DNA of 64,000 nucleotides from Collybia mongolica. Its lineage: Eukaryota; Basidiomycota; Agaricomycetes; Agaricales; Clitocybaceae. Position numbers and translations under genes: made by a program. The notes below the pieces were generated by a model. The model ran no database searches. It had not been told where the DNA came from and saw only the letters and a list, made by a program, of their open reading frames with translations. The stretch spans positions 806,001 through 870,000 of the forward strand of contig JAAXNY010000005.1 in the NCBI GenBank assembly GCA_013420905.1, in the 5' to 3' direction. Shown here piece by piece: positions 31,561-56,808 of the stretch (position 1 is its first letter; each line of letters starts with the position of its first letter).

Positions 31561-31589
31561 GACCCAAAGCGGAACAAGCCTCTTGTAAT

Positions 31590-31651: not shown

Positions 31652-32013
31652 ATTATGCAGTGGACAGTTATTAATTAATTCTTGAGATATCCCAAGAAAA
31701 AGACCAATTAACTCGAATTTATATTATTAAATGCAGCCCATGTTAGCAGTTGCCTTTTTTGCTCGAAATCCGCGCGTCGGCTAATTTTGATTCCCACAGT
31801 TAGAAAAATATTTCCACGACTACAAAGTCTTACTGATGTACTTCAAAATGTTTACTGATCATATTCTAATGAAATCTCGGAACACTTCAAACTTACTAAC
31901 CGTGGGAAAAACAACACTGGATCTTGTTGGGTACGCTGAATTTTCCCCGCAAACCCAGGATGATGAACGAGTTACTTATGTAAACATAAGGACTTGTAAA
32001 GGAGACTATTACA

Positions 32014-32494: not shown

Positions 32495-32549
32495 TAAATC
32501 AGTATGGAAACAGAAGCAGTAAAGACAGTATAAGCAACGAAGCTAAGTA

Positions 32550-33120: not shown

Positions 33121-33264
33121 AAAATTTATACAAAAGAATGGAATTTAAAGACAGTACTTTGATTAATTAAATAGAGGGGGAACAATCTGAGGTTATATTT
33201 TGTAAGCTTGGAGTACTTAGTAAGTTCAGGTGAAGGGGGCCCAAAGGCAAGCTCTTGAGAGTAA

Positions 33265-34084: not shown

Positions 34085-34617
34085 GAGAGTAATTCAGCAT
34101 GGCATTAGGGAACCAAAGGATTATGCTATTACTATTATTTAAATATTGCTTGAGCAAGGCTGTAAGATGCATGGGCAAAAAGAGTAGTATATGTAGTTAA
34201 TAAAAGAATGGATGTATCAACTATGTATGTATTGAAGATAAGGAATGACATCGATCAATAATTGACCACTTTCCACGATCCATAATGCGACCAATCACAC
34301 ATTCCACCTGGTTGAGATCAACACATTCTATAGCACAGCACAAAACCATAAATTTCTCACGAAGGCTATCTTCGGAATATTTGTCATCCTCCCGCATTTC
34401 TCTTCCATTTTACTTTCCCAACATTTCGCATCTTGAGAAATCCTGGGCTATGTACATATTCATACATTATCCATCCCTCGAAATGACACCGTTTGACTTG
34501 GTCAAAAATAAAAATCTGACATGCTCATGTGACCTGGTCGCGTCCACCAAACGTGGCAGCCTTCTGTATGCGGCAACTCCATTGCTCTCTCCCTTCATCG
34601 TTAGCCTTCCCTCCCTC

Positions 34618-37600
34618 ATGTCAAGCCACGCGGCCTTGCGAGTTCCGTGCTATTGTAATAGATGCTCTTCAACACCAGGCGCATTCATCTTCCAGACAAG
34701 ACAGGTTGTGCGAAAACATCAAGCAGCAGACAGACAAAAGCTGTTCATAGCATCACATGCATCGGAGTTGGGGCCAGCCCAGGAGCCGGTGGATGAGCCT
34801 GTATTCGCGAATCAAGATGTTCCATATGTTGAGGGCTTGGCCCCTAGTGCTGATAATTCAGATAGCCCACCAATCGATTACTGGGATTTACCTGAGTCTC
34901 CACAGTCACCATCACCAATAAGTGCTTCGTGACGGGCTTCACCAGCCCCCCAACGACTACCGGAGGCCTCGGCTCAAAATCCAGAAGATCTTACTGAAGT
35001 TTTTGTTCCCGCAGGTCCTGAACCAGACCCGGATCCATGGGTAGACGATGCAAATGATGAGCTGCATCCAATCGGGATTCCAGCCATGAAGGAAGAGGCT
35101 TATATTCGTCTGGCCTATTTACAAGTAGTAATGGGCAATGTCTTTGGAAAACTCACCTGGGAGCACGCTACTTAGCAACTTAACAACACACTGGATGTTC
35201 TTGCAATGGCTGATCGTCTCCCAATTCATCCTCGCCCAGTCCGAACATTGATAAGCGCTCGACGACGACTAGGAATTGACCCTGACACCTACATCATACA
35301 ATATGCTGCCTGCCCTATCTGCTGGAAGCACTACGCCCCCGAAGAACTCAAGAATCTAGCGAGCCCGGAATGTGTCGGCCGAAATTGCACAGGGAATGTC
35401 TACACCCTCAATGGAGAAGCCCGATCTCCAACTTTAATCGTTCCCCATGTTTCGATAATTGGCTCCCTCCGAAGAATGTTCATGCGCCCAGGGTTTGCAG
35501 GGCTTGTCGAACGCAAGGACACTCACCAACCAGGACGAAATAACGATGAGAATTTCCTTATGAAGGATATGCCCGATGGTGAGATGTGGTACCGCTCCAC
35601 GACAGGTACTACTTGCGAAGTCAGCAGCTTGGGAACTATACGTGATGTTCCAACCAACGGTGACCCCACGGCCACGAAATTGTTCTCACACCGATTTGGG
35701 CTACAATTGACACTGAACACCGATTGGTATGCTGAGCCTGTTCTACTGTAATGATACTGATACCACATGCATTCCCGACAGGTTTGGTATCCTTTCAGGA
35801 CGTCCGCATTCAACCGGGCCTGTCTATTATTCAATCAACAACCTTCCGCGTGAAAATCGCCTACAACAGGTTTACGCCCTCTGTACAACGATCATGCCAG
35901 GACCTCATGAACCGAATACTGACCAACTTAATAATTGCTTGGAGCCAGATGTCCGTGAATTCAAGCAGCTAAAACAAGGTACGTTTTCTACACTTTTCAA
36001 TGCATATATGCGCAGTTATTCTTCCCAGGTATAAAAATGGAGATACACGGCCAACCTCCAGACATAGTATATGCAGATTGCATTTGCGCCAACTGTGACA
36101 CACCCGCAGCCCATAAGTTCAATGGCTCTGCAGGCCATTCTCATGATTTTCACCCCTGCCCGTATTGCGCCGTTGACATTCTTGACATTGACCAGATGTC
36201 GGGATATCGAGAAGGCAAGTGTTGGGTCTTTTTTGATATCAATATTTCTCACACTATCCCTCAGATATTCCTGATAAAGGCGATGCCCAGCTCTTAAAAC
36301 ATGCCTTCAAATCAAGGCGTGCCACACCACCACGACAGCTTGTGATTCTTCGAGACAATGGTGTCCAATGGGCCATTTTCAACCTGCTTTCTAGCTGGCT
36401 TCCAGCATCAAAAACAGTTCTGGATTTTATGCACAATATCTTCCTTGGTTTGTTCATTCCTCGCTTCCCTGTTATGTTTGATAATCCTTATCATGAAAAT
36501 AGGTCTTATTTGTCATTTCTTTATGGCAGTAATATTCAAATCGTACATGTTAAGCGGCGTCGGGGGTGTTAATTCACCTAAGCAAAGATTTGAGGCAATC
36601 ATCAATGCTATTCGATGGCCAAGTCATATCACACGGTTACCCAAAAATGTATGTGACCTTTAAACTCAAGAAACTCTTCACTCATTGGTCCCTCAGCTTG
36701 GCGAGAATCAGTCCCTCAAAAAGGCCGATGAATGGCGTCGTATCCTCACAGTAACTCCCATCATCATTTGGTGGGCATGGAAGGATGATAATGACGATAT
36801 TCCTCTCGGCGAACCCATCATTCCTCCGAATGCAAAATCTGTCCCCGAGCATTCACGAAACTATTGCGCCATTTACTCAACAGTGCTCAAGCTATGTGCT
36901 GGTGTCCGTATCCTTGGCTCTCGGACGATTTCGATGGCTCAAGCCCGAGTTGGACAAGAATTCATTCTCCAATATTGTCGGGACCTCAAGAACCTTCGTA
37001 TACACACGACGATCAACCATCACCTAGCTCGTCATTACCTCAAGTTTATCAAGTTGTTTGGTCCAGTATATGGCTGGTGGCTTTTTGCGTTTGAGCGTTT
37101 CAACGGAATGCTAGAAAAAGTCAAGCATAATGGCCATGACGGTGGACGGATGGAGCTTACTTTAATGCGGAGCTGGGTAATGACACACCTAATTTTTGAG
37201 TATCTTCTCGCTCTCCCTGAAGATGGTAATGATCTCGAGAAGGGCTATATTGACAGGATCATTCAAACTGAGGCACGCGAGAACAGGGGTGGTATGATGT
37301 CGGACCTTGCTGTGTATTGAGCAGAAGCCTCCCTCGGAAATAACGTCTCTCTGCCTCGTCGATTGGGGAAAACTTGCAATATCGCCGACCTTCTTCACAA
37401 TGGCAGATCTTACGCACTCATGCTCAAATACGCCCAAGATTTATGGCCTGACCTAAACATTATTGACAACCATTCCATGGAGGATGGCCTACCTTTTTAT
37501 CGTTCACAAACCTGTCGGCCCTTGACATATATCTGCAAGGACGGGATCCGATACGGCGCGACATCTAACAAACGTACTAAAGCCGACTCACTTGCATTCA

Positions 37601-38054
37601 TTTCCGATGGACCCGGTCATCGCACGCCTGCAGAAATCCTGTCTCTCGTTTCTGTCAAGGTCGATGAGAAACCTCCCCACATATGCGCCCTGGTTCATCG
37701 TATGCAGCGCGATGAAGACATCCCGGTCTTTCCATGGGATCTTTAGTATGTGGGATACCTATTCAAATGCTTGTTCAGGTTAATGGAATCTTCAGTGCAT
37801 TGACCCTTGGGATTCACACAACATATGCTGATCAGTTTGATCCTCCGGAGATCATACCCATTTCGAAAATTGACAGCCCACTCGCACTTATTCCCATCCA
37901 TTCGCAGCGCATTCAAAAAGACCTCTGGGTCTCTGTATCATTTGATCATGTCAGTACTATATTCTATGTTGTTAAAAGAGCTTCACGGTCCCTACAGGTA
38001 GGAACCGAACCTGATGACCTATTCGATGATGAAGACAATGAAGGAGAGGAATAA
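34618..38054 (+). pseudogene. Tnp2/Plavaka-type transposase 1, decayed
   Basis: The start at 34618 precedes a CYCNRC N-terminal motif. Exons include 34618-35726, 35782-35978, 36029-36214 and 36265-~36448, then ~36527-36648 and ~36695 onward. The third intron uses a GC-AG pair. The frame passes GPVYYSINNLPRE, a DxCxNCDTPxxxKFNG/HPCPYC zinc-like region, FMHNIFLG, GVNSPKQRFEAIINAIRWP and the DUF4218-type GPVYGWWLFAFERFNGMLEK. In-frame stops at 34930 (TGA), 35173 (TAG) and 37318 (TGA) are each one C-to-T change from a codon. The family catalyses cut-and-paste transposition. Confidence 0.8.
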
Positions 38055-38080
38055 TACAGTAAGCAAGGAATGTTCACATG

Positions 38081-39879
38081 TCAGTCACTGTTGTCATCGT
38101 CACCATCATCCTCGTTCACAGCCGAGGAACTTGCCCGTGCCTTGTTTGGTTTCACACCCTTTCTACCCTTGCTGGTTTTCGCTTTCTTTGTCTCTTTTTC
38201 TACAGCAGCATCCATCGTTTTCCTCTTTTTCCCGTCTGCAATAACTTTTTTATCTGCCTTCAATCTTTCTCGCTTCGCCAACAGCACCTCGGGATCTTCA
38301 TCATCGCCCCAGGCCTTACCATTGTCCACAATCCGGGCCTCAATATCATACTTTTGATTCTCCTCCTTCACAAGCCAATCTGGGTCAATCATCCACCGCC
38401 GGGCCTTCAATTCTATCTTTTTCCCAACCTTCGGTGGCTCGTCACAAATGGGTCCAATCACACGGCGTGTGTAACGTGCAGAGCCATCTGGGTCTGGTGC
38501 AGCATCCACAGCAGCAAACAGGTCCTTCAGCTGCAGCCAATTGGGTATGTTAGTCTAAGTAAAGCCTAAATTTTATCTGACTTGCCTCTTTGCTACGATA
38601 GGCTGGAGCGTGTGAGACAAAATTTGCTGTTTTTGCACCGTTTGCGTCAAATTCATCCTCATCATCTGACATGAGCTTTCTTGTGAATGCAGCATCGTAC
38701 TTCTTGTCGCGGTATGGGGAATTGGGCGGTAGTTTTTCACGCTTTCTCATCCTCACCTCCAGTTTCTATGACTGAATGTCAATAAACTCCAGCATGAAAC
38801 AATATTGAACTTACCCCTCTGGCACGACTAGCCAGAACCGATACCTTCGACCTCTTCGCTTTTCCCTCGAGCTTTATTTGCATCGCGGCATCTTCGCCCG
38901 CCTCTGGTTGCACCTCGTCACTGGGAGCTGATGCCTCGGCCGCCTTGGCAATAATTCGCTCGTTCCGTGAATTCAGATAACCTCCATCTCGGAGGCCTTT
39001 CTGCAGGCTCGTGAATTTCTCGATGACCCACTTCTGAAGGTCATCAGAGCTGATCTTGGACAAGGCTCCCGAAGCGGCTGGTACAAGCTTGCTGCCGTGG
39101 TGATTCATATATGCGATAATCATGCGAATGGAGTAAAAGTTGTCTTCGTGATCCCAGGCCTTGTCCCATCGGAAACGGAGCACTGGGTCATCAGTCCCTG
39201 TAATTCGCGGCCAGGTCATCTTGTCAGGGCTTTCGGGGTACCATGGGAGATTTTTTGGTAGGAGCTTCGCAAGGTTCAGTTTGGTGGAAAATGCAAAACG
39301 GGTAAGTTCCTGATTATTTCGTGAGTATTCTTCTATGTGCACATTGCGGTTTTGACACACCTTTAAACTTGGATCAGAGAACGCGGACAAACTTTCCTCA
39401 ATCGCCTTGCGCTCGCGCGCCGTCATATCAGTCACCACTTCTTCTCCATCGTCACCCTCGGAGCTCTCGCTATCATCACCATCTTTTTCTCTCATCGCAA
39501 GCTGATCCGCTTCCAATACACCCAGTCGACCATCTGCTGAGGCCTGAGCTTTCTGTTGCATAGCCACGGTCCGCTTGAGGAGATCAAGTTCTTGTCGTAT
39601 CACTTTATTTTCATCAGTAAGTCTTTGAATCCTCGATTCTTGCTCTTCATTGTCAATTTCAAGTGTATTGATTCTCGTGTCGTGTTTGTTCAAGGTTGCC
39701 AGGAATACGCTAGTGTTTGCTTTGGTCTTCGACTGCGTCCCAGTGGTTGTAAATGAGGTAGGTTCACATGGACTGCTTGTTGCAGGAGTGGAGCTCTCGT
39801 TCATTGTTGAATCGCACTTTATTGAGATAACAGGAAGGTTGACGCGACACGTTCGTTTGCGAGGATCACATGTAACCAT
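38081..39879 (-). CDS. Coiled-coil accessory protein of the CACTA-like element
   Basis: The first exon (39879 to ~38817) encodes a long coiled coil (residues ~65-125, heptads with N-x6-L), an acidic patch and a conserved-looking DKAWDHEDNFYSIRMII region. It ends in basic residues. A spliced middle exon (RMRKREKLPPNSPYRDKKYD) and a last exon rich in lysine and acidic residues follow, with the stop at 38081. The gene converges on transposase 1, 27 bp apart. By position and composition it could be the TnpA-like DNA-binding partner of the transposase; this is inference. No stop or frameshift was noticed. Confidence 0.6.
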
Positions 39880-40261
39880 TTTTTCCCATCACTGTTCTTG
39901 ACAGCTGTCAGATGTATACGTAGTTAAAGCTAATAATATATAGTTGTTTCCTCGTCATGGATTGGCATTGGCAGAGCAAACGGAGGGAGCGATCCCCGCA
40001 CGCGCGCTGGGTATAGTAAATGTGGTCGTGATATGTTTGGCGAAACTCTGGCGAAATGACAAGCGAAATTATCAGAAAATGTCCAAGTTATGAGTAATAA
40101 CCTGGAAATATTCCGTGCGGGGTATTTCAGTTGATATGCAAGGATATCTGGCGAAATACTTGAACTTTTCTCACGTTTCACGTGCCGGGATATCTCAGGC
40201 TTTGTGCTGTGTAGATCCTAGGTCTTTGTAATAGTTCAAGGAGCAATAATCAGTTGAGGTC

Positions 40262-41640
40262 TTTACACTAAGCCACATAACCCGTGCGGACTCCGTGCGG
40301 ACTCCGCGCGGACACACGGACGCATTTGGCAGGACCGTCAGCCAGACAAGAATCCGTGTCCGCGCCGAGTCCACATCAATCCGCGTAATTTTACGCGGAC
40401 ACGCGGACCAGCACGGACGGACAGCTCGCAGAGTCCGCGCGGCCAGTCGATTACTAATCGACTTAGTAATATAAATTTTATTTACACAAATTATATATAC
40501 TATTTGTTATTAATAACATAACATAACGGTGGTGAAAAACTTGCATCCGACTAGGTTCGAACGCGTACAGGCACGAACATTACGTGATATGTTTGGCGTT
40601 CATAACCGTTGGGCAAGGCGGGCATTTCTAGCTACAGAATCACTGGCCTCAAGTCAACGGACTTAGGTCACATGATTACGAGGCACGTGCAATGGTCACA
40701 TTACCGTTGCCACGTCTTCGTTGGTTCTTTTCAACCACATCAACGACGCCCGCCAAAACCGCCAACGCCGACACCAACGCCAACGCACCCACGCCGCCAA
40801 CGCCAACGCATCGAACGCCAACCGACATCAACATGACGACGCACAAGACGATGTGGGGAGAAGGATAGAAACGGACGCGGAACGAGGGGACGATGAGGAA
40901 AGGGCGCCCCGAGGGGCAGAACCAGGTGAGTCGTACACCGCCGTTCACCCACACGCTCACCACGCAGCGCGTCCCCCCCTCCCCACTTCAGGAACTCGAA
41001 ACGAAGGATACGGCCGCCAACAGCAACAGGAGGAAGGCGGCAACGACAACGACAACGACGAAGACAGCAACAGCAACAGCAGCAACAGTGCCGACGAGGC
41101 CTGCGGCAACGACGGCAACAGCAGCGGCAGCGGCGGCACTAACAACGGCGCGACGACGACGACGACAACTACAACAAAGACGACCACCACCACCACGAGG
41201 ATGACGACGACTAAGGACAACGAGGACGACGACGACAACGACGACTAAGGACAACGGGGACAACGACAAGACAAGCGGCCAGTGCCGCCGCCGCTGAAAC
41301 CCAGGCCGCTGACGACGTCGCGGGGGCCGACGAGGACGACGGGGGGGCGGGGGCCCCCGCCCCCGCCTATATTAAATTATTTTATCATATATGTATTATA
41401 CTTAGTAATAATATATGTTATATTCTATTAATTATATAGATTGTTAGTAAGTAAAAGAGTAAGTAAGTGCTTCATAATAAAAGAAAGTAAGTGAGTCCGT
41501 GCGGACTCTGTGGAGTCCACACGGAGTCCGCGCGGAGTCCGTGCAGAGTCCGTGTGGACTTTGTGCTGTCCTTGCGGAGTCCGTACGGAGTCCGTGCGGA
41601 GTCCGCGCGGAGTCTGCAAGGACATGTGGGGGAGTGTAAA
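40262..41640. mobile_element. TIR element with GC-rich core, 1379 bp
   Basis: TTTACACT followed three bases later by CCACAT on the left is mirrored on the right. Both ends then carry runs of CGTGCGGACTCC-type words. The centre (about 40990-41280) is ACG/ACA-triplet simple sequence, open in several frames but not gene-like. It interrupts the 3' part of transposase 2. No clear target duplicate was found. Confidence 0.6.
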
Positions 41641-44600
41641 GTACAGAATCAGTTGCTGCTTCTGATATCTTGACCTGCCTGATAACTGCATAAATGAATG
41701 ATTCTGCCTCAATCCCCTCTCTTGGGGATGCTGGGATATCAACAACAAGAAAACGACGGAGTTGCCCGAAAAACTCTCACAGCTCAAACTCGGATCTTCG
41801 GGACCTGCGATGTGCAAATTTATCAACCTCAAGTTGATACTAGGGTTTGTATGAGTCAGAGTATGTCAAAAAAATCAGAAATGCATAATATACCTTGACA
41901 AATGACATATCACGGCTGTCAGACCTAAGCGGAAGAAGCTTGCGGGCATGCATAGTATCACCGCCCTCCAGGTGGTATACTCGGCCGTATTGATGGAATT
42001 GCGTCACTTGTGGTATAAGCCGTCGAATCACTGATGGGGATTTCTCGAGGCAGGTAGCCAATGTCGCTGTGAGCACCATCCATAGGGAACGAGAGAGGCT
42101 TGCTGCAGGTCCTTTTGGTGGGGTGAGGACGTGTAATGGATCTTAACTATAATTATTGAAGGACTGCATAGTATGATAAACAACGTACATTCATCTAATT
42201 TGAAATCCTGATCATGGGACTTTGCAGGTAAGACCTGAAGTTTGCCTTGTAAATTGTAGAGAAGAGTTATGTGTGCCAACTGGGCACATGAGGTGATATA
42301 GTTATTGATGCTCGCATAAGGAAACCGTCGGCTCTTGACATGGCGGAGGATATCACCACAGTAGCACTCCATTGGAAATGCCCAATAGGCCCAGACCGGA
42401 CCCATGGCCCTGACAGTTGGTGCGATATGGAGTAGTGCGTGAATTGTGAGGGGGCAAGTCGATACGCGCAGTGGGTCATATTTATAATATAGGCTGTTAA
42501 TATATATATCAGAAAATGACCTCTGGGTTGCGAGAAGTGCTTACCGCTCATACACCTTGACCCAATCCTGAAACCCCCTTTCAAGCTCATCTATTTGATT
42601 TTGTGTAATTTCAAATTGGAGGCAAATTGTTAACAGTCTAACTAGTTTAATAAAGTGCTTATAGTATCGGGGATGTACAAATCGGCCTTTAAGGAGAGTT
42701 GGTGCGATGTACAATAAAATGTCCAGACCGAATATGTTTCTGCAATCATATTAGACCTCTCTGATGCAATATTAGGAACCCTAGACCCAAACGCCGCCGG
42801 AGTAGTACTCCCCGCATCTGCAGTGGCTTCTCCAATAGCCTCCCATACGGTTGAGGATAATACATAGCCTTCGTCATTGTGGGGAAGATCTTTGAATTTT
42901 CCAGTCCAAAGCCGAATTAAGTTTGGGATGAGATTAGACCATATAAGATGCATGAAATCATAAGGGAACGAGGTAGGAAAAGATAGTGAACTCAGTGTAC
43001 TGAGGAGTGGAATACCCTTGATGCCATATTTAGTTGCGAGGCGTTCGGACTCTGCATCGGTTACAGCAAACTGGACTTTTTTTGCTTGTTCAATGAATGA
43101 CGAATGAGTTCGTAGTGGAAGTTCTGATGCGTTGTATTGTTCTTGTGGCTGTGGAAAGCCATCGCGGCACAGTGGAACATAATGGGTTGTCACTCGCGAG
43201 GATGGGGCACGGATGCCTTTGATGGTGCACATTCTGCAAGGATAGATGGCGTTGTGACCCTTCATTCGCATGACCATGGAAACTGCGGGTATATCACCAA
43301 AAACAACAACTAGAAATGCTCGGAGAAGGAATATGGATTCAGTCAGAGCATCGAAGGCAGAAACACCAATCTCGAGCTGTAGTAATTCTTGAACTACAGG
43401 CCACAAGAAGGAATCCATATCGTAGGGTTTCTTCGGCCCGGGAATTGACCCAAGTGGAATGATGTTTGCCTTGAGCATTCGCTCTTCAGGAGGAAGGTTG
43501 TAGTTAAATAGAATTAATGGCCAGGCAGTTTTGTTACGGCGCTTGAAAGGACCAAAACCGTCCGTAGATAATCCTAGTGCTACGTCGCGGGGATCTGAGA
43601 AGAACCATATAGGGAGTTCTTCATTGCCAATTGTAATATAAGTCTCCCGGAGTAATTGATAATGTGTACCATCAAATATATCAGTCATTTTCGTTGGGAT
43701 ATGTTTGTGCTTAGACCGATATTGCATCTTCCTGGCTTGAGCACGGCTTGAGACCATGGCGCGGAGTCGGGGGATGATAGGGAGATATTCATAATAGGAG
43801 AGGGGTGTTTTTCCATCAGCTTTGTAGCGATCCTTATTGCATTTGGGGCACTGTATAAGGGTTTCGTACGGCCCAGTGTAACACACACATGAGGAGGTGC
43901 AACAGTCATAATGTACTGGCTGAAAACCGGAAAGAAACTGGATTCGTTTCTCTGTGTTCTTCAAACTGTTGGCTGACAGCTCAGGAAGAAGATAACGAAT
44001 TTTGTTGTAAGCTTTATGAGTGAGGCCTTCTTCAATTTTGATGGTATAGAGACGGAGGATTTTTAAGTCACTCTCGTCTAATACTTCCTCTATGAGGATA
44101 TGGATCAGAGAGTGTTTCGAAGGACCCGAGTGGACACACCTAACCACGAGGCTTCCTTCAAAAACCCCTCGCCAAGAAGATCCCACACCGAGATACCCTC
44201 TAACCCAGGCTCTGCGCTTGGCATTTCATTATCACTACCGTCTTCCTCAAGATACTCATTGCTGTCGATAGAACCCTCACTGTCCGTGTCATCATTAGTA
44301 TCCATATTCCGCTTGTCTCCCTCATCCTCATCCTCCTCGCTGCTCTCGTCACCTTCCCTGGGGATGAACTGTCGAGTAGGATCAGGCCCCCATCTTTCCT
44401 TGCCAATTTTGTCGAGATATGCCGCAATACGATGAGAGCAGCGTGGATTGGATAACCCATAATGGTCTTCATGGTGCAGCACGGCTGATGGTGGTGATAA
44501 TTCGCGAGAGTGAACGTTTGATGGTCCTGCCTCGTTATCCATTGGATAGTCAATGGGGACTAATTGCGATTGGGGGTCCTCAACGTGCATGTTCTCCTCC

Positions 44601-44899
44601 CAGTCAGCATGAGCATGACTCTGGGATTGTTGATTGGTGGGCGGGCGGAATCCCGAGTTCGGTAACCTTTGTCGGGCAGGTGTAGCACGTCCTATAATTT
44701 GTTGCTTCATGGTGCGGCCTGAAGACTTCTTTCGAGGGGCTTTACTCTTAGCCGTTGAACTTGTTACCAGGAGATTGTTTTGCTCCAGAACTGCTGCAGT
44801 GAGACTCGAGCGCCCTTTGCCAAGTAGGTGCCGTGCTTCAGTCTTACAGTGAAGTCTCTCGCCGCAGCCACACGCGCAAAGGCGTCATTTATTGCCCAT
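41641..44899 (-). pseudogene. Tnp2 transposase 2 (CACTA/En-Spm), decayed
   Basis: The ATG at 44899 is followed four codons on by TGA (44885-44887), then a CACGCGERLHC segment. The N-terminus to 44105 and the core from ~44130 are in different frames. The core has CPKCNKDRY, the Tnp2 hallmark LSTDGFGPFKRRNKTAWPL, YNLPPEER, GSIPGPKKP and a MKGHNAIYPCRMC zinc-like motif. After introns come the GPVWAYWAFPME C-terminal domain and LEGGDTMHAR. A further TGA is at 41777-41779. The tail is cut at 41640 by a TIR element. Non-functional here. Confidence 0.85.
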
Positions 44900-45282
44900 G
44901 GTGTCTAAATGTCTTAAGTATATAAATAGATTAGTGATAGATAATGAGTTGTGAATGGCCAGACGCACCAAGGTTAATGTTCAGAACCTCACCACACCCC
45001 ACTATCGTTGTTTCCGATGTACAACCCGATCCTAATGGGCAGTACCCCACCGTTTGATATTGCCCTCCCCAATGAACACCTTGATGAAGCGGCGGAACGC
45101 CGTCGTGCACACCTGCAACAACGTTCCTAGGTTTCCTACTTCATTTAATTATTAGTCAATGTATTCCTTTCAATAATGATCATGTTCAAATTGTATTGAA
45201 GTTCTTATTATGACTACATATTCTATATACTAACTAATAGAAATTTGTATTGACTTACCAAGGGTCTATGAGGAGGCATATC

Positions 45283-45516
45283 AAATAGATGGTGGTGGTT
45301 TGGGATGAAGAGCGAAACCGTGCGAAAGCAGGCTGGGGCCTTACCTTATTCATCGGAATGTTGAAGTGTCGGGCATCCCGGGCATCGGGGTCATATGACC
45401 GTTCACATGACCCCAATGGCCGGGATACCTGACACTTCAACATTCTGATGAATAAGGTAAGGCCCCAGCCCGCTTTCGCACGGTTTCGCTCTTCATCCCA
45501 AACCACCACCATCTAT
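45283..45516. repeat. Long foldback (inverted repeat)
   Basis: Arms of ~110 bp, starting ATAGATGGTGGTGG and inverted at the other end, meet almost without loop around 45400. They differ at only a few bases. It may be a foldback MITE or a recent inverted duplication upstream of the SPT5-like gene. Confidence 0.85.
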
Positions 45517-45700
45517 CTGTTGGAGCCACCGCTCCCTCCTTGTCGACTACTTTGTAAGTATGATTCATTAGTTTATTAGTATATATCAATGTAGTAGTGT
45601 ATTAAAACAAAAAACCAACACGAATGATAATGATAGTAATAAAGATAGACTAACAAAAAAATCTAATGCCCTTAGGAAACCTAAGGACACTGCTGCAGGG

Positions 45701-48302
45701 ATGACAGGCAAGAAGATCCTTAACATAGCACGCGGCTTTGTTGACCTTGAGGCTCAGGTGGATGACAAGGAGGATAATGAAGGATTTGAGGAAGATCAGG
45801 ACCTCGGTGCGCCCCCCCCCGCCTTCGTAGTGCTTGGGACCTGCTAACACCCCGACATGCCAGATGACTTCATTGACAGGGATGACACTGTAGAATCCCA
45901 AAGCACGGCGAGACCATCTACATCAGTGGTGAGATCTCATGCCCAGGATGGCCAACTAGACGACCTTTTGGAGGGGATATTGGAACGTTCACGCGCCCAA
46001 CGCCCAGCGCACGATTATGGGCCAGGATCAGACATTGAATCGGATGACCTACCCATCAACACCATACGCGGTCCAGTCGACTCGGATTATCCATTGCTAA
46101 GGGTCCGCTGCACTGTGAGTCTTCACCACCGCATTTTGTGATACCTCTTACAGAAATACCTTATTTTCCGCCTCCAGCTGGGGAGGGAGGAGGAGGCCAT
46201 TATTTACCTCTTCCAGAATGCACTTCCAGTTCACAGGTTGCGATCAGCATTCACCCGAGATGCTATACAAGGCTGGTTTTACATTGAGGCTGCCATGAAC
46301 ACCGAGCTTTCGACACTTCTATATTCAGCCCCAACGATAATTCGTCCCCATGATGGTCTTTTTGGGATTAGGACAGAGGAATGGACACAATTGCTGGATA
46401 TGGAGATGCATGGAGGGTCTCCATCAATTGGAGACTGGGTCACAGTCAATCGGGGGCTATACAAAGGGGACGTTGGATATGTTCTGTCTACTGAGAACTG
46501 GGGGAAAGCTACCCTCCTTTTAGTTCCCCGTCTCCCCCACTTCCCTCAAAATAAGTCCTCTTCCTCTAAGAAAAGGAAACGACCTCTTACCCGCACGAAC
46601 CCTGCCTTATTCGACCTTGGGACGGAGGTCAACACCATGGCGAATTATCCCAATGCGCGCGTTGAATATAGAGAAGATGGAACGGCCTCTGTCTTCAATC
46701 GCATATTCGACCACTCCCTTGAACGTCGAACTTATCATTTCCACTCAATTTCTGTCCCCATTGACACCAAGCCACTCTCAATGCCAAGTGATATACTTGA
46801 CAAATTCTTAAGATCCCCCCACCCCCATATCGCAACAGCACAATTCCCTTGCCCCACGGAATGGAAATTCTTCGAAGGTGAAGAAGTGGTGATCAAGTCG
46901 TCAAGAAACAACGGGATTATCAAAGCTATAGGAACTCGCTCTGTGGAAATAGATCTTATGAATGGGGAGGGTCAAAAGATGTTCCAGTGGTCTAATGTGT
47001 GGAAGTATATAGCTCCGGGCCACTTTGTTGAAGTGCAGAGCGGCCCTCTGCGAGGGGAACAGGGATGGGTGGTAGGGGTTGAAGAACAAATGGTCTCTAT
47101 TACCGAACGGCTGGAACAAGAGGTACATGAGGATTTTGTCCTTCACAACGCACTAAAGGTAACTAAACAGTTGATATATTTTCGAGTAACTACTAATTAA
47201 TGTCCAACAGCCAAACGAAGTCCATAGGAATTGGATCAAAGTTATCAGCCCACCGATTACACTCCATGGACACGCTCCGGTATCAGACGACGAATTGACA
47301 GGCCTTATGAAGCGCGACCATACGCCCTGGAAAGGCATGGAAGTCATAGTTCAGAAGAAAGGTCACGCAATGAGAGGTTACCATGCAGTTGTCCAGGATG
47401 TTCAGCAGTCGCAGGAGACTTTGAGTGGCCTCAAAGTAACTGTGCAATTTATGCACCTCAACCCAGCAAATCCCTTCAACAAGCAGGTTCTGGACTACGA
47501 TGATATTGTGGAAGTGCGGTAAGTCATTTCATATCTACTGATAGTCAGCTTGGCCTCATTTTCATTAAGCTCTCATCGTAAATTATATGACTTCGCCCCC
47601 ACCAAAAATAAAATATTTACACCCCTTCCCGCTCATTTTATCACAAATCACCCACCAGTGGCCTCACAGCCTATCCCCGAGCCATCCGGAAGTGGCACTC
47701 CAATGCCCGACTTCCACTACCTCACGCCAGCTTGGAATCCATCGTCAAGGACTCCACTCACACTGCTCCCACCCCTCGAGGCTGGGCCAAGTACCCGGAT
47801 ATATTCCCCACTCCCTTCACCACAGCCGCAAGGCCCCATCCACCCACTATTAGACATGCGGCTGGTTGGTCGAAAGGTGAAAGTGCTGGTCACTGAAGGG
47901 AAACGGAAGAGCAAGGAGGTAGCCGCTTCGGTCGTGGAGACGGATGGAGAGTTATCCATCCGTTCCACGCATTATACCACTTCAGAACTCTTGTCACCAG
48001 AGCAAGTTACTCTGAAACATCCCAATCCAACACGCGACAATGGCTTGCTTCTTGTAATTGAGGGCGAGCATTGTGGTAAATATGTCCGGCGAATTCACCA
48101 TCGATATGATGGTGACAATGCATTTGTTCTTTTAGCTGTGATCAACCGGACAGAGGATGGCCACGAGAGTTTGTCGGAGGAGCATTTTGAGCTCAATCCC
48201 AACAAACTCTGTGTTGGTATTGAGACTAAGGATGAGAAAGCCCGTGGTGGTGAGCTGATGGCCAGCCTTCGTGAGGAGGCTCGAAAAACTCGCGCAAAAT
48301 AA
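45701..48302 (+). CDS. SPT5-like KOW/NGN protein on the transposon (5 exons, 792 aa)
   Basis: Exons are 45701-45806, 45864-46114, 46178-47158, 47211-47519 and 47571-48302, in frame throughout (793 codons). The N-terminus is acidic (DDKEDNEGFEEDQDL). A NusG N-terminal-like domain starts at YPLLRVRCT and continues across the intron to the GWFYIEA segment. Several KOW-like blocks follow: GDWVTVNRGLYKGDVGYV, then EEVVIKSSRNNGIIK, HFVEVQSGPLRGEQGWV, MEVIVQKKGHAMRGY and MRLVGRKVKVLV. A Pro/Ser linker lies near residue 580. SPT5 with SPT4 keeps RNA polymerase II processive. This copy would act in the nucleus. It is shorter than cellular SPT5 (about 1000 aa) and has no SPT5 C-terminal repeat. The start is the best ATG, and an upstream exon is possible. 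Confidence 0.75.
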
Positions 48303-49291
48303 GTAGGGGCACTATTAACATAATCCTTCTATAATATATACATTGCTTGATAATTGACATGCCCACATCCTATCCTAAGTATGACTTAATTTCTGTCGTT
48401 TATGCTGTCTTCCTTTTTCTATTATCCTACGGCCCAGTTTACTTCCCTGCTGCCTTTTTTGTTGGAAATTGAAGTTAAATACTGGGTTTACTAGGCTTCC
48501 ACCTTCAACGTGTATATGTATTGTAATATCCTTTTCATGATCAATTATACAACCGAAATGCAGTTAAGTGTTGCACATACCTTGTCTTTCACAGATTGAA
48601 TAATGCTGACTCCCATTTCCCCCTTGCCGTCCTCAGAGATTTTCCCGGAATTCTTGACATGATTATTATCACCTGCATCCGATGTTCAGCCTTAGCGCCA
48701 CTCGTCAAACTGATCTATACCTATTTCTTTGGTTGTACTGGCCTCCCTACTGGAGGCGTTGGAACAATACGGAACCCACCCGACGTATTCCGGTAGCCCA
48801 AGTTGATTTTCTGGACCAATGGATTGTTCGCAGTCAGAGTCTGTTTCAGGCTCTGTCACATTTTCTATGGTGTTGTGGCCATCCTCGTTGATGCACAGAC
48901 TCGCAACACCACTGTGAAGTATTGAGGAACGAGACATGGTAGGCATGAGGTATGCGTTTAGGATAACGAGCTATAATTTTACTAACTCAAATATATAACA
49001 CTATATGTGATTTCACTACTCTACGGGTGTCTTTTCCGACACTTGTTCAGAGATCCGTGGAGCCGCGATAGCAAAACCCTCTGCCCCAATATCCGACATT
49101 AGAACTCATCAAGCGACAATTAAGTGAATTGGAGTCGGAATTCCTCATTCCAACCCTTGCACTAGTGTCAAGATTTTGTGTTTTCCGCTTCCGCGTCAAT
49201 AGTGCCTAACCATGGAGCATATCCATGGTCGAATTCTTAAGGATGTAAGACATCTCTCCTCTCCCTCAACAACTCAATCCTCACAATCCTC
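48303..49291. other. Intergenic region of the CACTA-like element
   Basis: No spliced model was found. A minus-strand 84-codon ORF (48946-48692) has no motif or splice partner. Confidence 0.5.
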
Positions 49292-50194
49292 ATGGCTAAA
49301 TCCTCAGCATCGAAAGTCAATAAGCGTGGTGGCAAGGTCAAGTCGGGGTCAACTCCTGCCAAAAATAAAGTATTAGGTAGTTGCCACTTCCTCTAGTAGG
49401 ATGATTTCACTAATTGTATTACACCTGAAGCGGCACAGACCATGACCCTACAAGCTAAGCTGAAGAAACTACAAGGTACCTACGTCCGATTTATTTCTTC
49501 TTCAATGTGCGCTCAACTTCGTCAATACCATCAGCCGAGAACGACGCCCTGCGCAAATCTGCCGCTGCAAAAGAGATAACATCAGACTTGATACCACAGC
49601 CAGCGCGCGGCTCTAGCAGAAAGAAATTTAACTTACAGTTTGCAATGTGTTTAGAAGATGACCAGGATTTATATACATCAATTCGCGTAAGTTTCATTTT
49701 TATTCACGGAATCTATCTGATTATCTATAGCGTTCTGTTTGTGAATTGACTGCCATGGCAGGGATCGATTACAGCCTTTCATGGCACCGACAACCCAAAC
49801 CAATAATAGCCCGAATAATTGCTGTAGTAAGTCTCCTGTTATTTACCCTCCCTTTGACTAACAAAGTTGTCAGGCTCGAAAGCGTCACGAGTATCTGAAC
49901 CGATTTGCCCATGGCTGGCCCGTCGAGGAATTTATAAAATACAACCTCAAAAACAGGCGCGCCTATGCTCGTCGTCGCGGATATCTACCACCACCCTCAA
50001 CACTCGCCAATAACACAGATGATGATGATCGAGAAATGGAAGCAGATGAGGATGGAAGTGAACACGGCGAGAGTGATGACATGGACACAGCCATAGGAAA
50101 TGGGGACCGAGAGGACGGGGATGAGGGCAAGGGCAATGAGGATGGGGATGAGGACATGACAGGTGAATCAGACCTAGAAGAGGAGAACTTCTGA
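49292..50194 (+). CDS. Basic coiled-coil protein with acidic tail (5 exons, 232 aa)
   Basis: Exons are 49292-49376, 49431-49475, 49535-49686, 49731-49826 and 49874-50194. All keep frame, giving 232 aa. The N-terminus is lysine-rich (KVNKRGGKVKSG). A short coiled coil (LQAKLKKLQAENDALRKS) spans two introns. A conserved-looking RFAHGWPVEEFIKYNLKNRR segment comes next, with an aspartate/glutamate-rich end. The middle pattern resembles a repetitive agaricomycete family that I associate with DNA transposons. A DNA-binding or tethering role is inference. No defect seen. Being close to the right TIR, it may bind the subterminal repeats. Confidence 0.65.
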
Positions 50195-50339
50195 GTAGGA
50201 GAATTTTCCAAAATCTTCTAATTGATAAACCATACAGATACCATATTTTTTTCATATATAATTGGATTTTTTTGGCACTCTAGTGGATGACTTTCAGTTA
50301 GAAAAGGCTATATTTTAGGCAATATAATTATTGCATTCA

Positions 50340-50999
50340 GTGGATGAATATTTCCTGCTCCCCAGTCTGAAAAGTCCCCCAAAAATTGTTGAAAATCATC
50401 CAAACTCAAGGGTATGAAATTCATTATGAGCAAGGGGATGAATTGAGAGCCATAGAATTAATCCAGTTATGGTGAAGAATTCATCCAGAGATACTGTAGC
50501 TAATCCCACCTTTAAAAGTATGAAATTCATTCTAAGACAAGGGATGAATAAAAGCCATTTATTTAATCCAGTTTTGGTGAAGAATTCATCCAGAGATATT
50601 TTAACTAATCCCACCTTTAGAAGTATGAAATTCATTCTGAGGAAAAGGATGAATAAAAGCCATTTATTTAATCCAGCTTTGGTGAAGAATTTATCCTGGG
50701 ATAACATGGTTAATATTGCCTTTAGAGGTATGAAATTCATCCAGGGTATGAATAGTGGATGAATCTAAAGGTGCTGACTTGGGACATTCTATGGCTTGAA
50801 TTCAGCCAATAAAATACATACTTTCAAGGGGGAAAATCATCTCTTTTTACCCACCCTAAGGGTTGAATTTCCCAATATTTGTAAATGAAATTCATTATAT
50901 TTCTGTTGTTATGATGGGATGAAATTTATACTTTATAAAGATGACTTCCCACTGCTTAAGTAAGGAAAGGGGGGTTGTAAATTCATCCTCTATGGAGCT
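50340..50999. repeat. Right subterminal repeats of the CACTA-like element
   Basis: Three ~110-bp units repeat GTATGAAATTCATTCTRAG and GGTGAAGAATTCATCCAGAG-like words; isolated TTCATCC/GGATGAA copies continue to the TIR. The same heptamer fills the left end. Confidence 0.7.
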
Positions 51000-51100
51000 C
51001 ACAGTGGTAGTAAGGACAGTGTTAAGCCGAGTAAAGACAGTAATACAAAGGAGCATGGGGAGGGACACCATAACTAAGGAGGAAGTTAATTGGACTACCC

Positions 51101-52483
51101 TCAAGCAGATATGAAGTCGTCTTCAACCTCGGGCAAGGGCACGTCAGCCGGAGCTACCTCCTCCTTATCATTGTCATCCTGGTCATGGACTTCCGTAGTG
51201 CTCGCAGTGGCAGCCTCATCAGAGCCTCCCTCCAGAGCGGCCTCGTTCATTAGACCGTTGAGGCGAGTAACCTCGTCCATAGTGGCATCACGACGCTTCA
51301 ATAAGAAGGACACTGTATGACTGATCTCCTCCAACTCAGCGCGGTAGTTTAAAAGCATCCTACCGAGGGCTTGCTTGGTGTGCGACATGGGATCGCCCGC
51401 GTCTGCAATCAAGCGCGCCCGCGCTAAGACTACATCATGCTCCTTGGAGGGATGGAAGTCAATAAAGACACGAGTATCTGATGCACAGTTGGTATAAAAT
51501 TAGAACCATCTATTATTAGAAAACGTACCCTCAGCAGATGCCTTTGGATCTTCATCCGGGGTGTCCTGCCTCGTACGCTTTTTGGGGCGAAGAGTGCTGC
51601 CGCGATTGAGCTCGGAACGCTTACCGTCCTGTAGGAATAAGAAACAAAGTAATAGACAGAGCAAAAACAAGAATGGGTACCTTGATGGCAGCCTTTTCAG
51701 CCTTAGTCCTTTTGACACGGGGAACCTTAATGTTCTCCTTCTCCTTGCGACTACGGGTGATTGGTCCTTCACTAAGGAGACAACTAGTCACTGGTCCAGA
51801 GACAGCAGCACTAGCTGTAGCGCCGGAATCAATGACCATATTCTTGAGTAAAGAAGAGACGCCATTGAGTATGTCGCGCACTGACAGCGCAGTAGCTAAA
51901 AAGAAACATACCCGAGTCAGTACCAGACATTTCAATGTCACCGTCATATTCACCGCCAGCAATGACCTCGCCTGGAATAGTGGTACCATCCACATCACCA
52001 CCAGTAGCAGGGACCTAGTACCAGGAAACCATGGTTTAAAGAACAGTACAGTACAAGATGAGGTAAAAAGCACGCACCGCGGTTTGAGACAGGTGCTCAG
52101 TGCGGACCTTTTCACGGTGACGGTGAATAGCGGCAGTAAGAGTCACAATGTTACGGTAAACGGGCTCTTGAAGTAACTTGGGGTATACATGTTGTAGTCC
52201 CTGGAATGCCTTACGGACGCCAAAGATAACATTCTGCCAGGACCGCTCCATCAAAACCATTTTGGACTCAGTCAGGAGTAGCTGTAAATTGTAAAAGTTG
52301 GTTACAAAAACAGCGTTTTAAAAGTTTAATTGGTAAAACATGTACCGCGGTTTCGCCTAACTTCCGGACGCTGACCCTTTGTTCAACAAGGGTGTCCATC
52401 GATAAACGAGCTTGAAAGGTGTGCCACTGAGCTTGGACCATCTTGAAGTTCTCAATGTCTTGATAGTTGGGGGGGCTAGTCAT
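51101..52483 (-). CDS. Antisense gene B of the Ty3 element (multi-exon)
   Basis: Exons are 52483-52346, 52281-52078, 52014-51912, 51895-51681, 51628-51529 and 51477-51101, giving ~380 aa. Introns are 50-64 nt with GTAC/GTGCGT donors and AG acceptors. The exception is the third gap, which is only 16 nt (GTATGTTTCTTTTTAG). The N-terminal third is helical. The middle has a basic stretch (RSRKEKENIKVPRVKRTKAE) suited to nuclear import or nucleic-acid binding. The C-terminus has a coiled coil (~residues 275-335) and an acidic tail. No known domain recognised. It lies tail-to-tail with pol (CACTA insertion aside). A role in regulating or packaging the element is speculation. Confidence 0.65.
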
Positions 52484-53170
52484 AATGATGCAGAGGAAAT
52501 TGGAACGTTGTAAAGAGAGTATAATAGAGTTGGGCGATGTCTTGGGACAAAAAGCACAGCCAGTGCCCTTTTTATACCTCTACGACTAGAGAAGCGCTAC
52601 CCAGTCTCTCATTCGTTGCGCGCGTTCTACCCCCAGAAAAATCTATACATTTCAACTGAACAGGTCCGAGACGTGTGCCTAATTGAAATGCTGGGCCCAA
52701 TTGAAAAAGGAGCTCCGTAAAAATTCATGTGGAGCGCGGCAGTGTCCGCATGACAACTGGGACAGTCGTTGTCAGTGTTGAGGGGGAGATGGGTATAAGC
52801 AAAATCGATTTGGAAAAACCTACCAAGGTTACAAGGATTGAAATAGATTGTCTATAAAAAGTCAGTGATCGCGCCACGGTCTTAATGATCGAGAGAATTG
52901 CACCAGAATTAAACTGTACTATTTATAACTTAAGTAGCCGGTGCAAGGGTGGAAGCTTTCTTATGAAGACAATAGAACAACGGTTAAACCAATTGTATTG
53001 TTTATAGTCCAGGGGACTGTATGTAAAAACATGTGTTGGACTTCAATTAATAAAATTGAAGCCCAACGAAAGGCGGGGGAATAAGATGTATGTAAGGGCA
53101 CTAGGGCCCAGGAAAACACAGATATATAAATAAATAAAAAAAAAAACATAGATGGGGGGGCGCGGCGCGG
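52484..53170. promoter_or_regulatory. Gap between antisense genes; likely promoter of gene B
   Basis: No ORF of note. On the minus strand a TATAAAAAGG word lies about 90 bp upstream of the gene B ATG (complement at 52568-52577), a fair TATA candidate. The sequence beside gene A's stop is A-rich. Confidence 0.45.
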
Positions 53171-55142
53171 CTACTCCTCCTCGCTGTCAGGCACGGACAA
53201 AGAGGAACTTGACGACAAAGAACCGTCATCAACCTCTGCTTCTTCCTCCAAGGGTGGCCAAGGGAGGTTCTGGAAATCCGCGTAGAAGAGGAGAGCGCTC
53301 TCCGTGGCTGGTGTAGTCAGCAAGAGGTTTTGAAGGCCCTCCAGGCCTTCCTCCTCATACAACCTACTGATGGTGCCAACTATGCGCGCCAACAAGGAGT
53401 TGCGCATTTCAAGCGCACGGTTAGCAGCCTGAATGACCTCCGCAGCAAGAGTGTCTGCGTCGCCTAGCTGAGCATAGGCTTCAGCAACTGCTAGTAGAAT
53501 AAGTAAAATCATTAGTAAACAAAAAGACAGAAAGAAAATGGCTTACTAGAAATGCCCGCACCAAGCATAGGCCCCAGATCCTCACGAAGCCTAGCGTGCT
53601 TCTGGGGAGCGAGACTGAAGCTGCACTTCCCCTTCTTGGCGGTGGCGCATTCAACGCACGGTTTACCCCAACCGTTGAAGGAGCACTCAATGTCGCCGCG
53701 GGTGGCGCACATTGTGCAAGGATAGCCCACCTAGTAAGAATGATCAGTAACAAGAAATAAAAGAGTAATAAACATACGGTAGAGCGCCGAGGCACGGGGT
53801 CAGCCAGCAGAGAGGTAATAGGGGATTGTAGCGACGTCAGCTCCTGGTTGGGAACCAGCGCGTGCTTGCGGCGTGTCACCTGAACCCTATCCCTAGAACA
53901 AGTGGTCTTACGTGACCGACGAGGAGAAGGGGCCACAGGAGGTAACAACTCTGCGAATCCCTCTTGAGCCAACTGGCGCGCGATCTCTTCATTAAAGAGC
54001 CAAAGTTCAGGGACCTCAACCTTTACCACCTTTACCGGCGGCTGCCCAGAGGACTAAGGAGATAAAAATGAGTAAAAGTAAATGAGTTCAAAAGAGAAAA
54101 GAGACATACGGGACCTGCTTCCGAGGGACGCAGCGCGGCATCACTGCCAGCCCCCTGGGCGCGCGACATGTCGGACTAGAATTTTGAAATCAAGTCAGGA
54201 ATAATGTGAAACCCGTGAAGTAAAGGATGGTATATACCTGGGGAACCGCGCGGCCTTTGCCCTTGGACCCTGCGTTACGCTTCCGCTTGAGGGGCTATTG
54301 AAATAAGTCAACCACAGAAGAAAAGTAATAAAAAGCAGTGATAGACGAACTGCTGGTACCAAGACCGGGGAGTGCGCCGGCAAGGGCGCGGCGGATCAAC
54401 TGTCCCGGTACTGATGGTAACGGCGCAGTGCGCCAACCATGCGAGGAGGGACGAGGAAAGTATCCTGAAAGATACTTTCACCATTGTTGCGCTCGAAGCG
54501 CGACCCCACCTGGTCCAGGACTTGCTCCACAGTGGGAGCCTGGCCCTAAAGTAAAAGGTAGTCAGCTTGACAAGGGCAGGCAGAGTAAAGAAGTAAACAA
54601 GTCATTTACCAGAAGAATGGAATTGTTGCCCAGGTCAGTCAATATGACCGTATGCCAGGAAGACCATGAAGCCTCGCGCGCGTCGACTGGGATGCGCATC
54701 ACTTGAAGGTGAAGCGCGCGCAGGAGGAGAATAGCCGGATATGGCAGCGAAAAATGCGTGCCATGGACCACACCAGTGATGGCATCCTGAGACCAGTAAA
54801 TAAGTAAATTAGTGAAAGGTTTTAATAAGTAAAAGATGGGCGTACGATGAGCATGGAGCAGTGATCGACGAAGTCAATCAACTCGTCGAGGTCAAGGGGG
54901 CCCTGATGGTCCATACGGGGCGCGAGCTCCTCAGCCATAATAATCCACTCTTGCTCCATGGCGACGAAGACATCACCCTCGGCATCTTCAAGGAGGTCGG
55001 AAAATGAAGGGACTGGCTGGTCCACATAGACCATAGTGGGGGAACGGCCCTCAGTCGGTAAAATCGCGGCGGAGAGCGAGAGGGACAGCGTGGAAGGCGA
55101 GCACAGGGCACGAGCCATGGCAGAAGTGGGAGTAGAAGACAT
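53171..55142 (-). pseudogene. Antisense gene A of the Ty3 element: Zn2Cys6-like protein (8 exons, one stop)
   Basis: Exons are 55142-54846, 54786-54610, 54545-54360, 54294-54238, 54175-54110, 54053-53778, 53730-53547 and 53490-53171. They total 1563 nt, exactly 521 codons, with introns of 47-65 nt. One TGA (54396-54398) sits in exon 3 and is explained by CGA to TGA. The product has an acidic N-terminus, a basic PLKRKR(N) patch, an R-R-S-R-K-x-T motif and then C-X2-C-X7-C-X8-C-X2-C-X7-C (53716-53622), close to the fungal Zn2Cys6 cluster. A helical region and an acidic serine-rich tail follow. Nuclear DNA binding is likely by family. A self-regulatory role on the LTR is a guess. It is otherwise well preserved. 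Confidence 0.75.
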
Positions 55143-55581
55143 ATTGGTTTAGAGAAGTTGGAGCATTGGAGCGATGCGAATAGCAAAGAAATTTAGAAAT
55201 GGGCTATAAAGTCCAAATTGTCTAAAACTTAGCAAGGGCGCGAGCTTTTTAAAACGCACAACCCTGCATTGCGAAGTTCTAAAGGACAAGCAGGAGTACC
55301 GATCTCTTGCTGAAGTGTCAGAAACATAACGAGAGAAAGGTTCAGATGACTGAAATATCTGTAAAGCGATGTCCGAATGTCAAGTATTCTCTCAGGAGAC
55401 GTATATAACTGTCACGATCCTGATGGGAAGTAAACCTCTGGGCTCGATCCCAACATCGCGCGCCTACCTGTCTAAAAGCGGAACCGTTGTAACCTTGTAC
55501 TGAAAGATTAGACACGTGCAGACCCGAAGTATTGGACCAACATGCTGGCAAAGAGAGACTGAGGACAGTCTACATTTGTGG
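55143..55581. promoter_or_regulatory. Upstream region of antisense gene A
   Basis: This lies between gene A's ATG and the PPT. On the minus strand a TTTATAGCCC word is ~55 bp upstream of the ATG. It doubles as the 3' UTR of the element. Confidence 0.4.
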
Positions 55582-55592
55582 TATGGGGGAGA
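55582..55592 (+). other. Ty3 polypurine tract
   Basis: TATGGGGGAGA directly abuts the 3' LTR, the standard position for priming plus-strand DNA. Confidence 0.8.
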
Positions 55593-56808
55593 TGATAGGG
55601 CCCGAAATTGTTTGCACTTATAAAGTCGACAAGTAAGGCTATTAGTATCATTTCTAATAACCAAGTAAACAGTAATAAAGGATTAGAGTCAACCTCCAAG
55701 ACGGCTAATCAGAGTGAACTAGTCTAATGGATAATACACTATCAGTACAGAGGACTATGAGTACGGTCTATTATTAGTCCTATTCACCATGCCTGGTTAC
55801 AACCTCGGTGTCTTAGTTCATAAGTAACCGTTGTAGTATGATATCATTAGTCTGGGGATCATCATTAATAGGAGAAGTAATTGTAAATTCGGGACTTGCA
55901 CAACCCAATCCTAGTCAGGGGTACTTGGTGTTAACTACCGGAAGCGACGGGACCCCGTGAATAGCAACCGGGACAATCAGGAGGAGTAAATGACAGTGCC
56001 GCGCTGTTTTAAATAACAAAGCGCGCGGTCGTGACTTGATAAGAGTTTAGCCAGCTCTTTCAATATTTGATAAGTAACCAGTAAACGGCATAATTGGCAT
56101 GCATGGCGCGCATGCCAAGTTGTAGAGGACGCATCAGCATTGAATACAGATCCTTGGCGCGCGGGAGCGCGGTTCCGTGTAAAATTTACAATTCCGTATG
56201 ATATTTAGTTTGTACACTATAAATAGACTGTAGATGAGTAGCACTAAGGCAAGGAATCTTGCCCCCACTTCGCGCTACTATAGAGTATACAAATCACATT
56301 TGTTAAAACACTATTGTGTGCCCGAATTAAGGATCAGATTGCTTCAACGTGTCTTGATTGGAATTGATTGAAGAACCACAGAATTAAAGAAACTTAGTTC
56401 ACTTGGAACTTAGTACCGTATTGTCCGTTGGAATTACTAGGCACTTGGCCTTAGTGCACTTGGCACTGTATTGTTTGATAAGTCGCTTGGACTTATAGAT
56501 CCGCTTGGGATCATTAATAATTGAACGTACACTTGGTACTCAGTCTATTGGATCGGGAGATATTATAAATATACCTAGCAGGTTTTTAAACCTGTGTTGA
56601 AGCTTTTGTCCAAATCAAACCCATTGAGAGATCATTGGAAAGGGCTTTGGCTAGTACTATTCAAAGCTTAGTGCTTCTAAGCACTTGAACCCGAACTCAA
56701 AACAGGCAATTCCTACTGTTCGTGTGTTGATTGTTAGGTTTGGTGTGTGTGTGTAAGGGATTACATTTCATAGCATCAGCGCACTTATAGCCCAGGAGCC
56801 CCCTTTCA
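55593..56808 (+). repeat. Ty3 3' LTR
   Basis: 1216 bp, same length as the 5' LTR. About 13 substitutions by eye, 11 of them transitions and many at CpG. Confidence 0.95.

Follow-up and report, generated by a model that had tools for sequence, protein, structure and literature searches.

Two intron-rich genes on the antisense strand of a Ty3/gypsy retrotransposon in the genome of Collybia mongolica

Spliced antisense genes are known from retroviruses (e.g. HBZ), and a related arrangement is described here for a long terminal repeat (LTR) retrotransposon of the Ty3/gypsy type, found in a stretch of 64,000 nucleotides from the basidiomycete Collybia mongolica (GenBank assembly GCA_013420905.1, contig JAAXNY010000005.1, positions 806,001 to 870,000; hereafter, the window). 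HBZ of human T-cell leukaemia virus type 1 (HTLV-1) and the APH genes of HTLV-2, -3 and -4 have spliced antisense transcripts and mostly nuclear products, and HBZ, APH-3 and APH-4 lower LTR-driven transcription, as set out in passages of PMC10186651. The two genes of the window resemble them in being antisense genes of an LTR retroelement with a spliced structure, which is here known from sequence alone. They differ in that, according to the same passages, the viral promoter lies in the 3' LTR, whereas the present genes probably have separate internal promoters, and in that HBZ is a bZIP protein, whereas the present proteins have no Pfam bZIP match.

Among LTR retrotransposons, antisense accessory open reading frames (ORFs) are already known, and the accounts found treat them as single ORFs. 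Gene23 of the maize element Grande has its own promoter, a nuclear product and a proposed regulatory role (PMC7264820, in part). Grande, RIRE2 of rice, PvRetro13 and Retand with its antisense ORFs are, in the relevant portions of PMC7264820 and PMC11963269, angiosperm elements, and TRP28 (PF04195), the hallmark domain of the Retand ORFs, gave no Pfam match in the antisense proteins of the present element. The word stem ‘intron’ is absent from the searched main texts of both papers. In fungi, PMC7264820 names Boty (BcGypsy1) of Botrytis cinerea among the elements with an antisense ORF between pol and the 3' LTR. Its additional antisense gene, brtn, appears in the title of Zhao et al. 2011 as cited in PMC8365987, where the gene is noted to be absent from the last B05.10 annotation. 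The statement, made when the window was first read, that no such fungal system had been described was, therefore, too strong on the evidence of these passages, Boty and the present element being both fungal gypsy elements with an additional antisense gene; as far as descriptions can be compared, one antisense gene is named there, and two, with eight and six exons, are found here. An opposite-strand gene is also reported in PMC12477816, in the part that concerns it, but in a DNA transposon and not in an LTR element. In the literature searched, which misses most subscription papers, no account was found of an LTR retrotransposon with multi-exon antisense genes.

That first reading of the window (the original prediction) had placed two minus-strand genes, with eight and about six exons, between pol and the polypurine tract (PPT) that adjoins the 3' LTR. 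Both models are confirmed in the window, where all 12 of their introns are GT..AG. Genes A and B are, on the sequence evidence, genuine antisense accessory genes with a spliced structure and under purifying selection. Their features, all on the minus strand, are as follows.

53171..55142, minus strand: antisense gene A, eight exons
55142-54846, 54786-54610, 54545-54360, 54294-54238, minus strand: gene A exons 1-4
54175-54110, 54053-53778, 53730-53547, 53490-53171, minus strand: gene A exons 5-8
54396..54398, minus strand: in-frame TGA within exon 3 of gene A, unique to the window copy among 12 aligned near-identical copies
53547..53730, minus strand: exon 7 of gene A, encoding the Zn2Cys6-like motif C-x2-C-x7-C-x8-C-x2-C-x7-C
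55244..55254, minus strand: A/T-rich, TATA-like stretch upstream of the gene A ATG (by eye, weak)
51101..52483, minus strand: antisense gene B, six exons, 364 amino acids (aa)
52483-52346, 52281-52078, 52014-51954, 51895-51681, 51628-51529, 51477-51101, minus strand: gene B exons
52565..52579, minus strand: TATA-box-like sequence GGTATAAAA, 80-95 nt 5' of the gene B ATG, in 21/21 aligned copies

The count of 521 codons originally given for gene A is correct when the terminal stop is included, but one of these codons is the in-frame TGA of exon 3; the internal stop is absent from the 11 other near-identical copies, where the gene counts 518 codons.

The antisense block as part of the element

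The block that holds the two genes (51101-55142) belongs to the element and spreads with it. All the evidence comes from sequence data of one genome (46 Mb searched, in 26 contigs), in which the block is matched at no fewer than 41 places, the window's own included, and no fewer than 28 of these matches extend over its entire 4042 bases; these counts are lower bounds, the best candidates having been scored. When the best 39 of 640 candidate pol matches are taken as the starting point, gene B exon 6 lies within 60 bp of its expected distance in 37 of them, and gene A exon 8 within 200 bp in 34. The two matches without gene B exon 6 at that distance are one at a contig edge and the nested window copy, which misses it because a nested insertion intervenes. 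Among the testable ones of these 39, no pol copy devoid of the block was seen.

Two observations had been named in advance as speaking against carriage by the element. Relatives of the element that lack the block are not what the scored pol matches reveal, 37 of 39 having it in place. With regard to a block lying outside LTRs, all ten copies examined with their flanks hold it inside an LTR element, between pol and the 3' LTR, these ten being some of the block copies.

The antisense frames and introns are also conserved in other copies: among the 12 near-identical ones, gene A is stop-free in 11 and gene B is open and intact, splice sites included, in all 12, with 364 or 365 codons (terminal stop counted). 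The recently active copy C5:4.45-Mb, whose LTRs differ at one position in 1218 bp and are flanked by matching 4-bp duplications, has both genes open and every intron GT-AG. Exon 7 of gene A is found at 110 places in the genome (all candidates scored), in 107 of which the matched stretch is free of stops; the matches are 69-100% identical, two being short pieces. Decay is further advanced in older copies: of the nine divergent loci, L029, L030, L032 and L034 hold the block in part, and several have frameshifts or stops.

Intron retention and purifying selection

Reverse transcription of spliced RNA would remove introns of sense genes; antisense introns are spared, since in the genomic RNA they lie in an unspliceable orientation. 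Intron 7 of gene A is present in 96 of 96 pairs of exons 7 and 8, with a gap of 52-57 nt, among the exon 8 matches listed (four partial ones being left out of the count), which fits antisense genes; the remaining 14 of the 110 exon 7 places have no exon 8 within reach among the matches listed. One copy (C21) was considered as a loss of intron 6 and rejected, the deletion lying within exon 6 and the intron being still present. Over the aligned copies, donors are GT in 126/140 and acceptors AG in 138/140 cases for gene A, and the corresponding figures for gene B are 91/92 and 91/92. Donor decay, seen elsewhere in introns 1, 2, 3, 5 and 6 of gene A, thus amounts to 14/140 non-GT donors versus 1/92 in gene B, and several of the decayed donors have changed from GT to AT following a C. 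In the 11 near-identical copies, exon lengths differ from those of the window by -9 and -3, both multiples of three, and intron lengths by -8, -1, +1, +2 and +4. The proposal that the antisense introns are inherited, and that the element has carried them for a long time, is borne out by the retention of intron 7, by the full-length blocks and by purifying selection on the exons.

When pooled between subfamilies, the ratio of nonsynonymous to synonymous substitution rates (dN/dS) comes to 0.23 in gene A (10 pairs, spanning 0.17-0.43) and to 0.29 in gene B (7 pairs, spanning 0.21-0.37). Truncated or frameshifted rows were left out (L029, L030 and L033 for gene A; L029-L032, L034 and L036 for gene B), and L036, with a frameshift in exon 1, was kept by column for gene A. 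When the two other frames of the same strand are used as control, the modelled frame of gene A gives 0.22 versus 1.34 and 1.45 (5 pairs), and that of gene B 0.34 versus 0.78 and 1.04 (3 pairs), so that the check suggested by the original prediction finds both genes below 1 in the modelled frames, with the shifted ones at 0.78-1.45. The dS of gene A exceeds the divergence of its introns because the exons are CpG-rich, and the ratio of nonsynonymous to synonymous changes (N/S) was, therefore, also computed relative to an expectation built from changes by mutation class in the non-coding columns of the same pairs. Such CpG-controlled relative N/S is 0.36 for gene A (5 pairs) and 0.49 for gene B (3 pairs) and, outside CpG, 0.22 and 0.32, respectively. 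Among near-identical copies, dN/dS is 0.40 for gene A, 0.44 for gene B and 0.31 for pol, as expected if many copies are dead and few propagate.

Possible role of the antisense proteins and alternative explanations

The Zn2Cys6-like cluster originally proposed for gene A stands as far as its six cysteines are concerned: they include two CxxC pairs, and all six are retained in 19 of 20 aligned copies with the exon, L032 having lost one and L030 being without exon 7. The family assignment fared less well, as the exon 7-8 protein gave no Pfam match at E <= 10, the Zn2Cys6 profile (PF00172) included, and the label is one that cysteine spacing suggests. As in Zn2Cys6 regulators, the cysteines of gene A form two CxxC-led halves; unlike in these regulators, the second half holds the basic stretch, and seven residues rather than the usual six separate the second and third cysteines. 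Exon 4 of gene A encodes a further basic stretch, PLKRKRNAGSKGKGR, which by eye resembles a nuclear localization signal (NLS), and exon 8 a long predicted helix (predicted local distance difference test score, pLDDT, 76) and an acidic tail; exon 2 of gene B is a predicted helical hairpin (pLDDT 83). The structure models, made of single exons from single sequences, show only ‘helical’.

The picture that emerges is that of an element of approximately 14.2 kb with two accessory genes that lie between pol and the 3' LTR, on the strand that does not encode gag-pol, and are probably transcribed from their own promoters. The products would be nuclear proteins working on the DNA of the element itself or on its transcription, as the NLS-like stretch and six-Cys motif of A and the helical hairpin and basic stretches of B may indicate, and would most likely tune LTR activity or counter host silencing in a manner comparable to HBZ/APH and Grande gene23; the antisense RNA itself may add a control of the double-stranded RNA (dsRNA) type. 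A probability of about 0.6 is given to this reading of the block as a two-gene antisense accessory module, kept by selection and encoding nuclear regulators of the element.

Several observations weigh against it. Gene A is fully intact, with no stop and all donors GT, in just six of the 12 near-identical copies, the window having the stop and five others having lost one donor (GT to AT). Constraint appears milder when introns are the yardstick, dN being 0.076 versus an intron divergence of 0.128 for gene A, and 0.048 versus 0.098 for gene B, and between subfamilies the non-coding part of the block is 87% similar, versus 84% (A) and 90% (B) for the exons. The antisense proteins have no Pfam or NCBIfam family above noise and no fold match at E <= 0.001, and a sequence search of the PDB with them returned nothing significant. 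No homologue of gene A was found outside this genome at E <= 0.001, with the whole gene and a 10-row alignment of exon 8 as queries (gene B was not searched). As a control, pol gave 1345 matches in the same database, the 120 listed including full-length pol relatives at 56-81%, and related elements are, therefore, present in it; even so, this negative is weak, since intron-containing genes may be missing from the gene calls of the database. No loci with pol and exon 8 were found in IMG/VR and none with pol in prokaryote genomes. The transcripts and splice junctions of both genes are predicted ones, and the regulatory role is what analogy with the viral and plant cases would suggest.

Of the competing explanations, each of them unlikely, the one that survives best is that the antisense RNA rather than the proteins matters, through control of the sense RNA by dsRNA or small interfering RNA, or through promoter interference. 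Such an RNA would overlap the genomic RNA at its 3' end, a route discussed in part of PMC7264820, but a role of the RNA alone leaves unexplained the low dN/dS in one frame only, the exon length changes in threes and the kept splice sites.

Less probable again is a role in integration rather than transcription, with the antisense proteins tethering the complex or choosing or opening CpG-containing chromatin. It draws on the six-Cys motif of gene A and on a near-exclusive insertion at CpG. The exact 16-base 3' end of the LTR occurs 376 times in the genome; 94 occurrences continue into the element interior, and 282 do not. These 282 genome-facing ends, which cover the 3' side of the LTR only, are followed by NCG in 169 cases, by NTG in 55 and by NCA in 53 (277/282), the latter two, 108 in all, being counted as one transition away from NCG. 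In the window, CG accounts for 3.6% of dinucleotide positions. Because TG and CA are common dinucleotides, the 108 decayed sites carry less weight than the 169. In seven copies with both flanks, the 4-bp duplications are identical in four and differ by one base at the central CG in three; the flanks of the window copy are as follows.

19393-19396 and 56809-56812: 4-bp duplication site of NCGN type

The pattern is most simply explained by an integrase for which CpG is a requirement, followed by CpG decay. It is well established that the integrase itself normally determines which sequence is duplicated, and nothing ties gene A or B to integration. No paper describing such near-absolute insertion at CpG was found in the literature searched, and the rule looks unusually strict for an LTR element. 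ZAM of Drosophila also favours a GC-rich site, so that a sequence preference as such is not new. An equally doubtful extension would have the two proteins act as a pair in the nucleus, reading CpG-containing chromatin and tying the transcription of the element to its CpG insertion rule; if true, the retrotransposon would carry its own spliced chromatin-reading genes, with introns safe from reverse transcription.

It is even less plausible that genes A and B are passengers, i.e. host genes or another mobile element captured without benefit to the retrotransposon. PMC7264820, in the part concerned, considers transduction and nested insertion as routes by which such extra ORFs could be captured, and a function that we infer leaves some room for it, but purifying selection is seen across subfamilies and no host paralogue of exon 7 appears among its 110 scored matches. 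Finally, a sense-strand env-like protein with the antisense frames as by-product is scarcely credible: of the two sense ORFs of the window (167 and 122 aa), the first (51673-52176) was rejected as an env-like gene, being broken in 17/17 other copies, so that the antisense reading is the conserved one, and the second is broken in 8/19 other copies, being open in 10/11 of the near-identical ones, where it overlaps gene A exons.

The host element and wider meaning

The element is a Ty3/gypsy LTR retrotransposon: it has TG...CA LTRs, a target duplication, a PPT, and a gag-pol in which Pfam places RT-RNaseH before integrase, the domain order of this group. RNase H and the H2C2 integrase finger are above the Pfam cut-offs, and RVT_1, rve and the gag zinc knuckle below. 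It spans 19397-56808 of the window, where it is split by two nested insertions; uninterrupted copies measure approximately 14.2 kb from LTR to LTR in the comparison with ten other copies. The place originally given to the antisense genes, between pol and the 3' LTR, holds, but insertions of 4.7 kb and 18.5 kb separate the start of pol from the block in the window copy. The parts are the following.

19397..20612, plus strand: 5' LTR, TG...CA, 1216 bp, 98.9% identical to the 3' LTR
20720..27293, plus strand: gag-pol reading frames
21499-22584, plus strand: gag, zinc knuckle slightly under the Pfam cut-off
22566-23693, plus strand: protease, weak similarity
23745-27293, plus strand: reverse transcriptase (RT)/RNaseH/H2C2/integrase
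27294..31998, no strand assigned: nested insertion 1 (4.7 kb), breaking pol of the window copy, absent here in ten compared copies
31999..32549, plus strand: 3' end of pol beyond nested insertion 1, weak SH3_Tf2-1 similarity
32550..51006, no strand assigned: nested insertion 2 (18.5 kb of other DNA), absent here in ten compared copies
55580..55592, plus strand: PPT adjoining the 3' LTR
55593..56808, plus strand: 3' LTR, 1216 bp (by comparison of the LTR pair)

No second gypsy family was seen when a pol relative of 57% identity was used as query: the best 36 of 634 candidates were solely places of 57-58% identity whose open frames match those of the present element.

Further features of the window lie inside the nested insertions or beyond the 3' LTR. 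A direct repeat pair of approximately 2.6 kb (27293-29926 and 57148-59702, 93.5% identical, about 30 kb apart) has one member within nested insertion 1 and the other past the 3' LTR. Nested insertion 2 contains a near-perfect inverted repeat (45282-45519) with 117-nt arms, 93% complementary, around a 4-nt spacer. At 42642-44186 on the minus strand, a frame of 514 aa matches Transposase_21 (tnp2, PF02992, E 5.5e-25), and at 46238-48302 on the plus strand two frames are found in mobile DNA, the first SPT5-like, with a KOW motif of weak similarity to that of SPT5, and the second with no Pfam match. A Ty1/copia gag-pol frame of 1320 aa (60036-63998, minus strand; RVT_2, E 1e-70) leaves the window at its edge.

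What sets this element apart from single antisense ORFs is that two multi-exon genes have been inherited with their introns over many rounds of reverse transcription, and under selection. LTR elements can, thus, harbour intron-containing accessory genes that are taken for host genes or passed over, and the approximately 110 places with a gene A exon in one genome would make direct tests of antisense accessory function possible.

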